Shown here: piece after piece, positions 909 through 7,535 of the stretch
Layout: the number at the start of each line of letters is the position of its first letter
Position numbering within the stretch: the first letter of the stretch is position 1
Assembly (NCBI RefSeq): GCF_014697025.1
Contig: NZ_JACJRC010000010.1
Location: forward strand, 62,001 to 126,000
Reading direction: 5' to 3'
Length of the DNA stretch: 64,000 nucleotides
DNA from: Alkalinema sp. FACHB-956
Lineage (GTDB): Bacteria > Cyanobacteriota > Cyanobacteriia > Leptolyngbyales > Leptolyngbyaceae
Position numbers and translations under genes: made by a program
The notes under the pieces: generated by a model
What the model was told of the DNA's origin: nothing
Databases searched by the model: none
Seen by the model: only the letters and a program-made list of their open reading frames with translations

Positions 909-1259
909 TCAGGAATCCCAAAATTCACTGATGAGTAACTGCTGAATTTGCTCCTGCAAAGGTTTTACCTTGGTTTGCACAATGTCCCAGAGCACTTCAT
1001 CTTCAACCTGGAAATAGGCATGGGCGAGGATATCTCGCAGTCCTGCAATTTTTCGCCATTCAATTCCAGGAGCCAGATCGCGGATATTCTGTGGAATCTG
1101 CTTGACGGATTCACCAATGATTTGCAAATTGCGGGCGACAGCATCGATCGTTTTTTCATCGGCCACAAATTGTTCAAAGGTTAGCCCTTGGCTATAGCGT
1201 TGAACTTTGGCACAGGCGTCCAGGATATCTTCCAAATACAGTCGAAGATTACGCGACAT
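909..1259 (-). CDS. hepT: HepT-like ribonuclease toxin (DUF86)
   Basis: This 116-residue protein has the HepT/DUF86 fold pattern and the catalytic R-x4-H-x-Y motif in RDILAHAYF near residues 74-82. HepT is the toxin of the HepT/MntA type VII toxin-antitoxin system: an RNase (HEPN domain) that MntA silences by AMPylating the motif tyrosine. The ATG at 1259 overlaps the 3' end of the upstream mntA by 11 bp, so the two are almost certainly translationally coupled with the antitoxin first. It lies at the left end of a defence-rich stretch. Confidence is high for the family; toxicity is inferred. Confidence 0.9.
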   Translation of the reverse strand: MSRNLRLYLEDILDACAKVQRYSQGLTFEQFVADEKTIDAVARNLQIIGESVKQIPQNIRDLAPGIEWRKIAGLRDILAHAYFQVEDEVLWDIVQTKVKPLQEQIQQLLISEFWDS

Positions 1260-1539
1260 GAATGGCTTCCTGTTCGACGGTGTGGCGAATTTGGGGGTTT
1301 AGGGATTTCCAGCTAACCAAATCAACCTGGGTACCTAGTTGGTCTTCTAGATACAATTTGACATCCATGTAGCGATCGAAGGTGAGGGGAGCGTCCCAAT
1401 CCACCAGAATATCGACATCACTGTCTGCATGGGCGCGATCGCGGGCGACGGAACCGAAGATCGATAACGATCGCACACCTAGCCCTCTGAGTACTTCTCG
1501 GTGCTGTCGTAAAATGGCTAGGGCTGTCTCTCGTTGCAT
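1249..1539 (-). CDS. mntA: MntA-like nucleotidyltransferase antitoxin
   Basis: This 96-residue minimal nucleotidyltransferase has the signature G-S-x10-D-x-D, seen as GSVARDRAHADSDVDILV near residues 29-46. In the HepT/MntA system this enzyme transfers AMP to the tyrosine of HepT and blocks its RNase activity. The catalytic aspartates are intact. It is the first gene of a two-gene minus-strand operon and overlaps hepT by 11 bp. Start is the ATG at 1539. A free-standing MNT with other substrates is possible but unlikely given the adjacent HepT. Confidence 0.9.
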   Translation of the reverse strand: MQRETALAILRQHREVLRGLGVRSLSIFGSVARDRAHADSDVDILVDWDAPLTFDRYMDVKLYLEDQLGTQVDLVSWKSLNPQIRHTVEQEAIHVA

Positions 1540-2959: not shown

Positions 2960-4303
2960 TTATTCCTGGCTGGTGGGTTGGGTGGCTCGCAAAATCAGCC
3001 AACTGGAAATGATGAGCCAGAGAAAGGCGAGGATGTAGGCGATCGTCATCATGCCTTTAATTTTGTCGGTGAGGTTTGTCCAATAGGTGGAGTCGTAGGT
3101 TAGACAGAGAGCCCCGACGACTTGGCCGGATTGGTTTTTGATGGGGCCGTAGATGGAAACCCAGGTACCGAATTCGTTTTTGTAGGGGGTGAGGTTGATG
3201 ACGACATCGGTCAAGCCCTTTTCCATTTCGCTGAGGTTGTCGGTGATCAGGCTGTGGTAAGGGGAGGCTTGGCTGGGGTCGGTGATGCGGTTGAGGTCGC
3301 CGACCAGGATCAGTTTGCGATCGGCGTTGCGGGTATAGGTGGCGGGAAAGGCTTTGGGGGCGATTTGGTGGACGGTTTGTAACCAGTCTTGATGCGCTTG
3401 GTAGAGGGGGTGGGTGCTGGGTTCGGTTTGACCGGGGGCGAGGTTGAGTCGGCTGAGTTGGGCAAATTCGTCGCCGTCGATGCCTGCGAGGGCTCCGTCG
3501 AGGGTTTCCTCCATGGTTTGCTCGACCTGTTGTTCGGCGATCGTGCTGATGCGCCAGTAGATGAGGGTGAGTCCGGCGGCGACGAAGAGGAGGTTAGCGA
3601 TGACGGTGGTGAGGACGACGATCCATTTCGCTTTTTGGCGGGCTTTGAGGGCAGCGGTTTTGGCGTTGAGGCTGGCGGTGATGTAGGCGCTGTGGTTGGC
3701 GGTGGGGCGGGGTTGTTTGCTGATGCCTTGGCTGAGCCAGGTTTGGGCGTCGGCGAGGTCGGTGCCGCGCAGGAGGTAGCTGGGGTCTTGGTTGCGGTGT
3801 TGCCATTCGATCGATCGCAGGAGGAAGCGGGTGTGGGCGCGAACGTAGTCGAGGTCGGTGTCGAGGGCGGTGATCAGGTCTTGGAAGGCTTGCTGAAAGT
3901 TGTCGGTTGCGCGGGCGAAGATCCAGTTGTGTTGGGAGATGCAGCGGTGGACGCTGGCCATGTCGAAGCCTTCGCGCCAGAGCAGGGGAAGGAAGCGTTT
4001 GTTGTGTTTGGCGGCGTGGTCGATTTCGTCGCGGCAGACGCTGGAGAGGACGGAGTCGGGGCTGATGATGAAGACGAAGCTGTCAGCGGCTTCGATGCCC
4101 CGTTGGATGGATTTCCACCAGTCTTCGCCTTTGTTGATGTCGTCCCAGTCGATCCAGGGGTCGCGGCCTAGGGCTTGGAATTGGGCGACGAGTTGTTCGA
4201 CGAAGGCTTTGTCGCGACGGGAGTAGGAGATGAAAACGTCGTTTTTGCTGACCCATTGGGTGGGTGGGATGGGGTCTGGAGTGGAGGGGCTGGGCTGTCC
4301 CAT
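2960..4303 (-). CDS. TIR-domain membrane protein with extracytoplasmic Cache-like sensor
   Basis: I take the ATG at 4303 (447 residues); an in-frame TTG at 4321 is weaker. Residues ~22-145 form a TIR domain: DVFISYSRRD at 22-31, DPWIDWDDI at 48-56, and S-x-x-C-x-x-E (about 87-93), where the glutamate is the expected NAD-hydrolase catalytic residue. A linker (DYVRAHTRFLLRSIEWQHR, ~152-170) is the type that joins TIR to WD40 domains in cyanobacterial TIR proteins. Here it leads to a transmembrane helix (~227-249), a ~165-residue extracytoplasmic segment ending GTWVSIYGPIKNQSGQVVGAL (Cache-like), and a second helix (~417-437). No WD40 repeats are present. NADase signalling or abortive-infection activity is inferred. 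Confidence 0.82.
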   Translation of the reverse strand: MGQPSPSTPDPIPPTQWVSKNDVFISYSRRDKAFVEQLVAQFQALGRDPWIDWDDINKGEDWWKSIQRGIEAADSFVFIISPDSVLSSVCRDEIDHAAKHNKRFLPLLWREGFDMASVHRCISQHNWIFARATDNFQQAFQDLITALDTDLDYVRAHTRFLLRSIEWQHRNQDPSYLLRGTDLADAQTWLSQGISKQPRPTANHSAYITASLNAKTAALKARQKAKWIVVLTTVIANLLFVAAGLTLIYWRISTIAEQQVEQTMEETLDGALAGIDGDEFAQLSRLNLAPGQTEPSTHPLYQAHQDWLQTVHQIAPKAFPATYTRNADRKLILVGDLNRITDPSQASPYHSLITDNLSEMEKGLTDVVINLTPYKNEFGTWVSIYGPIKNQSGQVVGALCLTYDSTYWTNLTDKIKGMMTIAYILAFLWLIISSWLILRATQPTSQE

Positions 4304-4506: not shown

Positions 4507-5361
4507 ATGCGTCGTGATGCAATTTTTTATAAATTGTTCCAGCAATCTCCCAGTCTGCTGTTTGAGCTATTGGACGCGGTGCCGGAAACTGCCAATTCTG
4601 TCATGCAGATACGACGTGAACGCTATCGATTTGAATCAGTGGCGGTGAAAGAGCCGACGTTTATGATCGATGGGGTGTTTTTGCCCCCAGAAGATGAACC
4701 TGAAGGGGTAGTCTTTTTTTCTGAGGTTCAGATGCAGCCCGATCGCAGGCTCTATGAGCGAATGTTTACAGAGTCGATGGCCTATTTTTATCGCAATCGA
4801 GATGCATTTTTTGATTGGCAGATGGTAGTGATTTACCCGTCACGATCGATGGAACAGTCTGAAACCTACCCCTATCGGGCATTACTAAACAGTGATCAGG
4901 TGCATCGGATTTATCTGAATGAGTTGGGCGCGCTCGAACTTTTGCCGTTGGGGGTGGCGACTATGGTGCTGACGATCGAAGAGGATGCAACTGCACCAGA
5001 GAAGGCGAGGATGCTGATTGGGCGGGCGAGCCAGGAGATTACGGACTTGCCTATGAAACAAGGCATAATAGAGATGATCAGTACAATCATCGTGTATAAG
5101 TTTACGAATTTATCGCGGGAGGAAATTGATACGATGCTAGGCACTAAATTGGAAGAAACCAGAGTCTTTCGGGAAGCGAAGGAAGAGGAGGCACGATCGC
5201 TGATTACTCGACAACTGACTCGCAAATTTGGATCTATTCCTGATCTTTCCTTCGATCGGATTAACTCCCTTTCGATCGAGCAATTGGAATCCCTCAGTGA
5301 AGAGCTACTCGATTTTGGAGCCATTGATGACCTCATAGGTTGGCTCAAAAATCAGGGGTAG
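4507..5361 (+). CDS. Rpn/DUF2887-type PD-(D/E)XK nuclease with DUF4351-like tail
   Basis: This 284-residue protein starts with the family opening DAIFYKLFQQSPSLLFELL. A nuclease-like core follows, with FMIDGVFLPP (D) and VVFFSEVQMQPD (E-x-Q), consistent with the degenerate PD-(D/E)XK active site of Rpn (recombination-promoting nuclease) proteins. The C-terminal ~65 residues (LTRKFGSIPDLSFDRINSL to IDDLIGWLKNQG) resemble DUF4351, a common Rpn tail. Rpn proteins act as nucleases, and variable C-terminal regions are thought to tune their recognition. Two orphan copies of its tail region follow at 5406 and 5630, so this locus may diversify by tail exchange. The ATG follows GCGAAAGT, a weak ribosome-binding site. 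Confidence 0.85.
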   Translation: MRRDAIFYKLFQQSPSLLFELLDAVPETANSVMQIRRERYRFESVAVKEPTFMIDGVFLPPEDEPEGVVFFSEVQMQPDRRLYERMFTESMAYFYRNRDAFFDWQMVVIYPSRSMEQSETYPYRALLNSDQVHRIYLNELGALELLPLGVATMVLTIEEDATAPEKARMLIGRASQEITDLPMKQGIIEMISTIIVYKFTNLSREEIDTMLGTKLEETRVFREAKEEEARSLITRQLTRKFGSIPDLSFDRINSLSIEQLESLSEELLDFGAIDDLIGWLKNQG

Positions 5362-5405
5362 AGCGATCGATGACTTGAAATGGCGATCGTGCTGCTCAAG
5401 TTTGA

Positions 5406-5594
5406 ATGGATACTATGCTAGAGATTAATTTGGAAGAAACCAGGGTATTTCGGGAAGCGCAAGAAGAGAAAGCGAAGACGATCGCACTTAATTTTCTAAA
5501 GCTAGGAATGCTCTCGATCGAAGTGATCGCTCAAGCTACAGGATTATCGATTGAACAAGTCCAAGCTCTGCAAGCGCAGGTAGAACAAAATTAA
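5406..5594 (+). pseudogene. Orphan Rpn tail cassette 1 (alternative C-terminus)
   Basis: The 62-codon frame repeats the hinge of the preceding Rpn protein (LEETRVFREA-x-E-E) and then diverges into a different ending, SIEVIAQATGLSIEQVQAL. That ending is the other common C-terminus of cyanobacterial and firmicute Rpn proteins. There is no nuclease core and no good ribosome-binding site, so it reads as a displaced 3' end rather than an independent gene. The DNA before it (gatactatgctag) matches the hinge DNA of the full gene around 5129-5141. It could be a silent cassette or a decayed duplicate. Confidence 0.65.
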
Positions 5595-5629
5595 GGGACG
5601 ATCGCGCTGCTCTAGTTTGTATCGACATT

Positions 5630-5857
5630 ATGCTAGGTACTAAACTTGAAGAAACACGGGTCTTTCGGGAAGCGAAGGAAGAGGAGGCACGATCGCTGGT
5701 TTATCTTCAGTTAGAACAAAAATTTGATGCGTTATCTGATGCCCTTAAAGATCGAATCAATGCCTTGTCGCTCGACCAATTGCAGGCTCTAGCGATCGCG
5801 CCGCTCCGGTTTGCCTCGATCGATGACCTGACAAATTGGCTAGATCATCAGGGGTAG
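5630..5857 (+). pseudogene. Orphan Rpn tail cassette 2 (DUF4351-like)
   Basis: The 75-codon frame starts MLGTKLEETRVFREAKEEEA, identical to the hinge of the full Rpn protein at about residues 210-229. It continues with a diverged version of the same tail (LEQKFDALSDALKDRINAL to SIDDLTNWLDHQG). It lacks the nuclease core. The bases after its stop match the bases after the stop of the full gene (agcgatcgatgacttgaaatgg in both, split here by position: 5360-5381 and 5853-5880 regions). The unit is therefore a tandem duplication of the gene's 3' end that has since diverged. Confidence 0.65.
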
Positions 5858-6943: not shown

Positions 6944-7318
6944 CTACGAAGACTTAAACGCTAAACTGAAACCAAGCTCAATACAGACTGCTTTCTCGAT
7001 TTCTTCCCAATAAACTTCTTCTAAAACACCCTGTTTATTCTTAATCCTCTGAGCATCTACAGCCCTCAATTGACTTAAATTGATGTGCCGATCTCCATCG
7101 AGTCCATTCTGCGTAGTTGGTTTAACATTCACAACGAACGGGTACGTCCTTGTTCCAGGCAACAATGGAGCAACTATTGTTGTTGTCCCATTTTGGTTGC
7201 CAATATCATTTTGCAGAATTAGACAGGGGCGTTCTTTATCGGTTTCATGACCAATAACGGGTTTCAAATCGACCCACCAGATCTCTCCTCGCCTGTAGGT
7301 TAAGTTTCCGTTAGGCAT
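6944..7318 (-). CDS. mazF: MazF/PemK-family mRNA interferase toxin
   Basis: A 124-residue protein with the MazF/PemK opening RGEIWWVDLKPVIGHETDKE, then RPCLILQNDIGN and an INLSQLRAVD segment near residue 80. The conserved arginine of the R-P motif and the S/T of the second motif are present. The family cuts single-stranded RNA at short sequence motifs, halting translation until the partner antitoxin returns. The ATG at 7318 overlaps the antitoxin gene by 8 bp, so the pair is coupled with the antitoxin first. Family assignment is firm; target sequence is unknown. Confidence 0.9.
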   Translation of the reverse strand: MPNGNLTYRRGEIWWVDLKPVIGHETDKERPCLILQNDIGNQNGTTTIVAPLLPGTRTYPFVVNVKPTTQNGLDGDRHINLSQLRAVDAQRIKNKQGVLEEVYWEEIEKAVCIELGFSLAFKSS

Positions 7319-7535
7319 TTAAACCATCACCTGCTGCAATATCCCAGACAGAGATTTCTGCCTGGAATTCTGGGTCATTAGCCTGAGCTTTATAAGCATC
7401 TTCTAGCTCTCGCATGAAAATCCTTTTCTTCTCTTGCAAGAGAACATTATTGATAAAGCTGCTACGATTGCTTGCCAGCTGATCTACAAAATCTAGAACT
7501 TCGTCATCCAAGGTGATACTAACTTTCTTACTCAT
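7311..7535 (-). CDS. Ribbon-helix-helix antitoxin of the MazF pair
   Basis: A 74-residue protein beginning KKVSITLDDEVLDFVDQLA-S-NRSSFINNVL, the beta strand plus two helices of a ribbon-helix-helix DNA-binding domain. The acidic/aromatic C-terminus (DPEFQAEISVWDIAAGDGL) is the usual toxin-neutralising tail. It overlaps mazF by 8 bp. A perfect 10-bp inverted repeat overlaps its probable promoter at 7561-7595, fitting the autoregulation by antitoxin or complex that is known for this family. Start is the ATG at 7535. Confidence 0.88.
   Translation of the reverse strand: MSKKVSITLDDEVLDFVDQLASNRSSFINNVLLQEKKRIFMRELEDAYKAQANDPEFQAEISVWDIAAGDGLNA

Follow-up and report, generated by a model that had tools for sequence, protein, structure and literature searches.

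To our knowledge, the characterised prokaryotic TIR effectors (Thoeris, SPARTA, and the CBASS-linked and CRISPR-linked ones) answer intracellular cues. The TIR domains of SARM1 and SPARTA have the same TIR fold as the protein studied here (hereafter TIR-Cache); cytoplasmic NMN/NAD controls the former, and guide-target nucleic acid the latter. Animal Toll-like receptors, with a sensor outside, a membrane helix and a TIR domain inside, are comparable to TIR-Cache only in the way they work: in TIR-Cache the N-to-C order is reversed, the sensor is unrelated, there are two transmembrane (TM) helices and the catalytic-type glutamate of the TIR domain is kept, and no descent is claimed. Cyanobacterial TIR-WD40, TIR-TPR, TIR-ARC6 IMS and TIR-CHASE2 proteins share with TIR-Cache the TIR domain, the linker, the position of the TM helix and the SxxCxxE motif, whereas the Cache sensor followed by a second TM helix sets TIR-Cache apart as a separate clade. 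The TM-Cache-TM module is homologous in sequence to that of Cache histidine kinases (L054, L059, L064, L069), and its sensor resembles WalK, DcuS and CitA in fold; unlike the kinases, TIR-Cache lacks HAMP and kinase domains, and its output is a TIR domain on the TM1 side.

A metacaspase-CHASE2 protein has been described from Trichodesmium erythraeum whose receptor lies outside the cell and whose protease lies within (PMC3501461). As portrayed there, it resembles TIR-Cache in uniting a death-type effector inside and a receptor outside in one cyanobacterial protein, but its effector is a protease rather than a TIR domain, and its receptor CHASE2 rather than Cache. Excerpts of other papers deal with conflict-system proteins whose variable C-terminal domains, CHASE2 among them, are maybe outside (PMC8195603), and with the diverse architectures of bacterial TIR groups (PMC7075850); the portions available of PMC7159879 and PMC7517822 mention TIR domains and do not contain the TIR-Cache layout. 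TIR-Cache is a real, conserved variant for which, as for TIR-CHASE2, no description was found in a limited literature search based on partial texts, a result that does not imply absence from print.

Domain layout, membrane helices and sensor fold

The window is the whole stretch of DNA analysed, 64,000 nucleotides long (bases 62001-126000 of contig 10, in an assembly of 6.16 Mb). A minus-strand ORF (4303..2960) with an ATG start encodes a protein of 447 aa, whose parts are listed in Table 1. The initial annotation had read it as a TIR domain fused to a TM helix, a Cache-like domain and a second TM helix, a layout borne out by the ORF, by a Pfam TIR_2 match at residues 23-144 (E 2.1e-25, 90 bits against a cut-off of 28), by two hydrophobic segments and by a model of the sensor.

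Table 1. Positions of the TIR-Cache gene and its parts in the window.
Feature	Position	Strand	Basis
TIR-TM-Cache-TM receptor-like protein, whole gene	2960..4303	-	ORF and translation, 12-member family
TIR domain, residues ~20-150, predicted cytoplasmic	3854..4246	-	Pfam TIR_2, fold match to SPARTA TIR-APAZ and SARM1 TIR (Z 15-18)
E93, catalytic-type glutamate of SxxCxxE	4025..4027	-	Alignment with PdTIR (3h16), Cat1 (9mud), 7uxr
Linker, residues 151-225, conserved among related TIR proteins	3629..3853	-	Family alignment
TM helix 1, residues ~226-248	3560..3628	-	Hydropathy, charge, model
Cache/PDC sensor, residues ~249-418, predicted extracytoplasmic	3050..3559	-	Model, fold matches, kinase-sensor homology
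TM helix 2, residues ~419-441	2981..3049	-	Hydropathy, model helix 406-441
Short tail, six residues after TM2	2963..2980	-	Aligned C-termini; HAMP starts there in kinase homologues

The hydrophobic segments (residues 228-246 and 420-438) lie 173 residues apart, and five K/R residues before TM1 against one after it give a positive-inside bias. Hydropathy detects two strong hydrophobic segments in all 12 members of the family described below, and K/R residues before TM1 outnumber those after it in 11 of them, the exception being L045 with equal numbers (3 and 2 in another segment placement). Hydropathy, K/R counts and homology thus place the sensor, computationally, between two TM helices with the N terminus inside. 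The full-length model has a mean pLDDT of 70, with most of the TIR domain at 72-84 (weaker near residues 51-60 and after 120) and low confidence in the linker (under 50 at residues 151-212); in it, TM1 runs on into the first Cache helix, the two making up a single helix that spans residues 202-273. Kinases of this type pass their signal out via TM2 into HAMP. Since almost nothing follows TM2 in TIR-Cache, the signal would have to pass via TM1.

Fold comparison of the full-length model reached the TIR part only, so the sensor (residues 248-420) was modelled separately from a seven-sequence alignment. The resulting model (pLDDT 87.4, pTM 0.83) shows a long N-terminal helix and five strands in the order H2-26 ... 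E71-78 E84-89 ... E121-129 E132-142 E148-157. The top Foldseek rows were extracytoplasmic sensor domains of chemoreceptors and kinases, and structural alignment ranked WalK first (4ywz, Z 13.6, 138 aligned, rmsd 2.7), with DcuS (3by8, Z 13.4, 131 aligned, rmsd 2.4), CitA (2j80, Z 12.9, 126 aligned, rmsd 2.3) and another WalK/YycG also among the top matches. As modelled, the sensor is a single Cache domain of the Cache/PDC fold and not a cytoplasmic domain, in line with the initial annotation. The Pfam profiles Cache_3-Cache_2 (E 0.0076, 16.0 bits against 27.7) and sCache_3_3 (E 0.047, 14.5 bits against 28.8) stayed below their cut-offs, and the kinase homologues likewise miss or barely touch the Pfam Cache models; given the fold result, we regard these sub-threshold scores as a matter of model sensitivity. 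The sole solved structure matching the sensor by sequence was a PsaJ helix (E 0.12), which was rejected.

The TIR-Cache family, the origin of its sensor and the wider TIR group

Two overlapping draws from the same class, one of 144 genomes and one of 388, were searched and yielded the full TIR-TM-Cache-TM layout in 12 proteins including the query, the other 11 being 41-54% identical to it. Conservation of the full architecture at this distance makes a chance ORF implausible. Hosts include Leptolyngbya sp. RL_3_1, the Leptolyngbyaceae MAGs SM1_4_3 and RM1_406_9, Stenomitos frigidus ULC18, Cyanobacteria bacterium FACHB-471 and the cyanobacterial MAG casp40-mb.69. A draw of 386 genomes from the phylum (E <= 1e-60) gave a full-length match in the own genome only, with at most four candidates scored per genome, so that misses are possible; over the three overlapping draws of 144, 388 and 386 genomes, the distribution of the 12 full-length cases is patchy. 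A single-protein search of genome contigs returned no relative, and an alignment-based search of the same kind of record returned six, letter-identical to six of the 12. None of five matched plasmid records held a full-length copy. Incomplete sensor pieces were left out of the family (L065, G296:C58, and G296:C90 near a contig edge).

Residues 224-447 match other proteins in 55 of 388 genomes (E <= 0.001, TIR family included). Seventeen carriers without a TIR domain entered a sensor tree; ten were scanned with Pfam, and the rest (L058, L060, L062, L067, L071, L072, L073) were labelled by reading their sequences. Among the scanned ones, four are histidine kinases (L054, L059, L064, L069) with HAMP and HATPase over the cut-off and HisKA just under it in two; one is a PAS-GGDEF-EAL protein without a HAMP match, one a HAMP-PAS protein broken by an in-frame stop, and the remaining four carry HAMP at most, over the cut-off in one. 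No Pfam match to HAMP or kinase domains was obtained in the query, which is therefore not classed as a sensor histidine kinase. The TIR proteins stop at the position where HAMP starts in their homologues or no more than about 30 residues past it, and ten of the 12 keep an RP or QP at that position.

The 12 TIR-borne sensors form one clade in the sensor tree (support 100/99), the same 12 group together in a 40-row tree of the TIR-linker part (100/98), and a 60-row quick TIR tree unites them as well (SH-aLRT 98). That the TIR-linker and the sensor each recover this clade suggests a single fusion event. The simplest history would be that a TM-sensor-TM module was captured once from a HAMP-containing receptor and joined behind the TIR-linker, while HAMP and the former output domain were lost; the output would thereby have shifted from the side of TM2 to that of TM1.

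Sixteen of the 19 residues invariant in the TIR-family sensors occur in at least six of the seven nearest non-TIR sensors. Against a simple story of an unchanged sensor count several residues typical of the other sensors and mostly lost from the TIR family: W378 (16/17 versus 0/12), G400 (17/17 versus 1/12), E351 (17/17 versus 2/12) and Y321 (15/17 versus 1/12), losses suggesting that the ligand or its mode of binding may have changed. The window protein itself departs from a common D at two sites, carrying N376 (D in 28 of 29 rows) and T402 (D in 25 of 29), which may reflect a change of ligand.

Six TM residues (V229, T233, N237, W429, S434, L438) are invariant in the 12 and found in none of the 17 other sensors, against 0/19 family-only residues in the sensor domain (Fisher 5.6e-6, a value that is not a probability, as the rows share ancestry). 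The TM1 alignment contains a two-residue gap, and a one-residue shift puts T opposite T233 in 10 of 17 sensors; under some shifts L438 faces L in 8-11 of them, and under one shift V229 faces V in four. N237, W429 and S434 alone are absent from the 17 at every shift tried (-2 to +2). A stronger claim of family-specific TM residues was cut back in view of these register shifts and of the shared ancestry. At the alignment register, F241 (14/17), F423 (16/17) and Y427 (17/17) of the other sensors occur in 0/12 members of the TIR family. Taken with the three shift-proof residues, this hints that TM packing may have been rebuilt in the family.

Two further groups of sensor carriers deserve mention. 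Six proteins of about 340-400 aa (L061, L062, L063, L066, L070, L071) combine TM-sensor-TM with a HAMP-like part and a similar C-terminal motif (DFF...KA); Pfam scans of L061, L063, L066 and L070 placed HAMP over the cut-off in L061 only, no output domain was found in the six, and we read the group as a receptor family without obvious output. A Deinococcus protein annotated as HAMP domain-containing, encoded on plasmid NZ_CP092194.1 (196220-196813), is 31.8% identical to the sensor, which extends the reach of the latter beyond cyanobacteria.

The initial annotation had also likened the TIR domain and linker to those of cyanobacterial TIR-WD40 proteins, and sequence search, the TIR-linker tree and Pfam on the relatives agree. 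The wider group comprises 61 TIR proteins matching the query TIR-linker at E <= 1e-40, with duplicates dropped and the 12 included. A TM helix, scored as a hydrophobic 19-mer of at least 1.6 within 85 residues around the linker end, directly follows the linker in 58 of the 61, and in 46 of the 49 outside the family. Same-length controls scored in 1/61 cases inside the TIR domain, in 0/60 further downstream and in 64/1220 shuffles. In 50 of the 58, K/R residues are more numerous before than after the helix; they are equal in seven, among them the TIR-CHASE2 protein of the source genome, and fewer in one. The contrast drawn by the initial annotation between an outside sensor and the usual intracellular triggers is consequently doubtful within this group.

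Pfam applied to 34 of the 49 relatives (thresholds 1e-3 to 1e-8) found 15 with WD40, seven with CHASE2, four with TPR, two with ARC6-like IMS, two with NACHT and four with nothing more, counts that are not frequencies, many of the proteins having been picked by ORF length. Three proteins lack the TM helix, namely the two with NACHT (L027, L034) and a single one with WD40 (L106). The NACHT switch requires cytoplasmic ATP, which fits with the missing helix in the NACHT proteins. TIR-CHASE2 was found seven times in the sample, and one case comes from the source genome, which has 18 CHASE2 matches. That protein is encoded at G000:C44 16245-19607 (L002 31-2043, minus strand; CHASE2 E 1.7e-52), the other six belonging to relatives. 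On the quick tree TIR-CHASE2 proteins occupy two places away from the Cache clade, and the starred branches force one origin only; outside sensors thus joined the TIR chassis at least twice, Cache once and CHASE2 at least once.

In the WD40, TPR and IMS relatives, too, the C-terminal domain may lie outside, and the sensing of outside cues may be common among the TIR proteins of this group. What is special to the TIR-Cache family is an identifiable ligand-binding domain together with the second TM helix of a kinase-type receptor, TM1 being common to the group. We tentatively propose, as an idea with a somewhat less than even chance of holding, a cyanobacterial class of cell-surface-type TIR receptors, in which a TIR-linker-TM chassis would set an NADase under interchangeable outside domains (Cache, CHASE2, WD40, TPR, IMS) and the TM helix would be dropped with NACHT; the Cache members would be kinase-type receptors with TIR output, in which outside small molecules command NAD+ breakdown. 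If a TM helix after the linker does prove to be the rule, the C-terminal domain of many TIR-WD40 and TIR-TPR proteins of cyanobacteria may be situated outside the membrane. TIR-Cache is of interest mainly as a testable case and as a pointer to this larger class.

Proposed mechanism and alternative readings

We consider it fairly probable that TIR-Cache is a single-protein membrane receptor with an NADase inside under the control of a ligand outside. Domain identity, sensor fold, the two TM helices with their N-in charge bias, the glutamate, the single origin and the kinase-type source have computational backing, while enzyme activity, dimerisation, the ligand, the direction of gating and the role in the cell are inferred. 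The N-terminal TIR domain, in the cytoplasm, would be an NAD+-hydrolysing or NAD-cyclising enzyme, active when at least two TIRs meet. The Cache domain, outside the inner membrane (in the periplasm or thylakoid lumen), would bind a small ligand, whose state would rearrange a Cache dimer; this change would be relayed back down the continuous helix formed by Cache helix 1, TM1 and the juxtamembrane helix, so that the TIRs would adopt or leave their active arrangement. NAD+ depletion or an NAD-derived signal would then follow upon an outside cue, for which damage, infection of neighbours, a released metabolite or stress are candidates. If true, a TIR gated by an outside ligand would tie NAD-based suicide or signalling in bacteria to their surroundings or to adjacent cells, a link that would matter for filamentous organisms. 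The system is tractable, as the soluble Cache domain could be screened for ligands and the TIR output reduces to a simple NAD assay.

Such a receptor could also serve ordinary physiology rather than defence or cell death, sensing nutrients, redox state or osmotic conditions via an NAD-derived messenger. We think this possible, if somewhat unlikely. The sensor family is common to two-component and GGDEF-EAL receptors, the TIR-Cache protein had no match in phage records, and ten neighbour genes from family loci scanned with Pfam were metabolic, regulatory, transport or DUF genes, with no known defence partner among them. Against this reading stand the patchy distribution noted above and the fusion of TIR kin to WD40, TPR or NACHT, the usual company in conflict systems. 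The two genes flanking TIR-Cache, one glutathione S-transferase-like (1695-2939, plus) and one with DUF2887/DUF4351 (4507-5361, plus), lie on the opposite strand, so TIR-Cache is not part of an operon. Among the neighbours at the 12 loci, of which L074 and L075 have little flank on one side, no partner gene was common to distant members. Shared neighbours are mostly confined to three close relatives (L076, L079, L086), the others being a gene for a chromate transporter (L074, L075, L080), DUF4351 genes (L076, L079, L087) and two unidentified genes that L084 and L087 have in common.

Nor does the protein fall into a catalogued defence system, none of those in PADLOC or NCBIfam fitting it over a cut-off. 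The Thoeris ThsB models NCBIfam ThcB4 (30.9 bits against 220) and Pfam ThsB_TIR (16.6 bits against 21.2) remained under their cut-offs, and PADLOC ThsB models, which carry no cut-off there, match the TIR part (best E 6.7e-07). As regards a ThsA partner, no neighbour is common to all or most members, with Pfam covering only ten neighbour genes.

A less likely alternative, to which we assign a small share of our expectation, is that the TIR domain of the membrane receptor acts as a scaffold, recruiting other TIR proteins by TIR-TIR contact and without NAD turnover of its own. The TIR domains of Toll-like receptors work in this way and are among both the profile and the fold matches, and the source genome has 13 TIR_2 matches, three of them within one ORF. 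The best fold match of the TIR part is the SPARTA TIR-APAZ protein (8i87, Z 18.0, rmsd 2.4, 129 aligned), followed by SARM1 (9mw2, Z 17.6, rmsd 2.2, 126 aligned) and, with an equal Z of 17.6, by the TIR of TRR-2, a Hydra receptor (4w8g); because of this tie, fold cannot separate an enzyme from a scaffold. The motif S87-x-x-C90-x-x-E93, by contrast, is invariant in 12/12 family members and SxxCxxE is present in 60/60 related TIR rows examined. E93, the glutamate after S-x-x-C to which the initial annotation had drawn attention, aligns with that of the solved bacterial TIR enzymes PdTIR, Cat1 and 7uxr, where we take it to be the catalytic residue, whereas Toll-related 4w8h has T at this position in the same alignment. 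E93 thus speaks for an enzyme over a scaffold.

It is hardly credible that the C-terminal half is a cytoplasmic PAS-like domain with hydrophobic segments that do not span the membrane, as a weak PAS_6 match at residues 340-411 might suggest (E 0.0027, 18 bits against a cut-off of 27), given the two strong hydrophobic segments in every member, homologues holding the same TM-sensor-TM module ahead of HAMP, and top fold rows that are, by title, extracytoplasmic sensors of kinases and chemoreceptors.

Several minor features were observed around the family loci. In L080 (6957-11256, minus), the TIR-Cache gene adjoins a 938-aa ORF with a related TIR domain (43.7% identity over the TIR), possibly as a tandem pair. 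In the window, the DUF2887/DUF4351 gene is followed by two short ORFs (4507-5857 overall, plus) that repeat parts of its C-terminal region (LEETRVFREA) and are apparently decayed duplicates. Two overlapping small ORFs at 909-1539 (minus) resemble a HepT-MntA toxin-antitoxin pair, and two adjacent small ORFs at 6944-7535 (minus) resemble a MazF-type toxin and its antitoxin.
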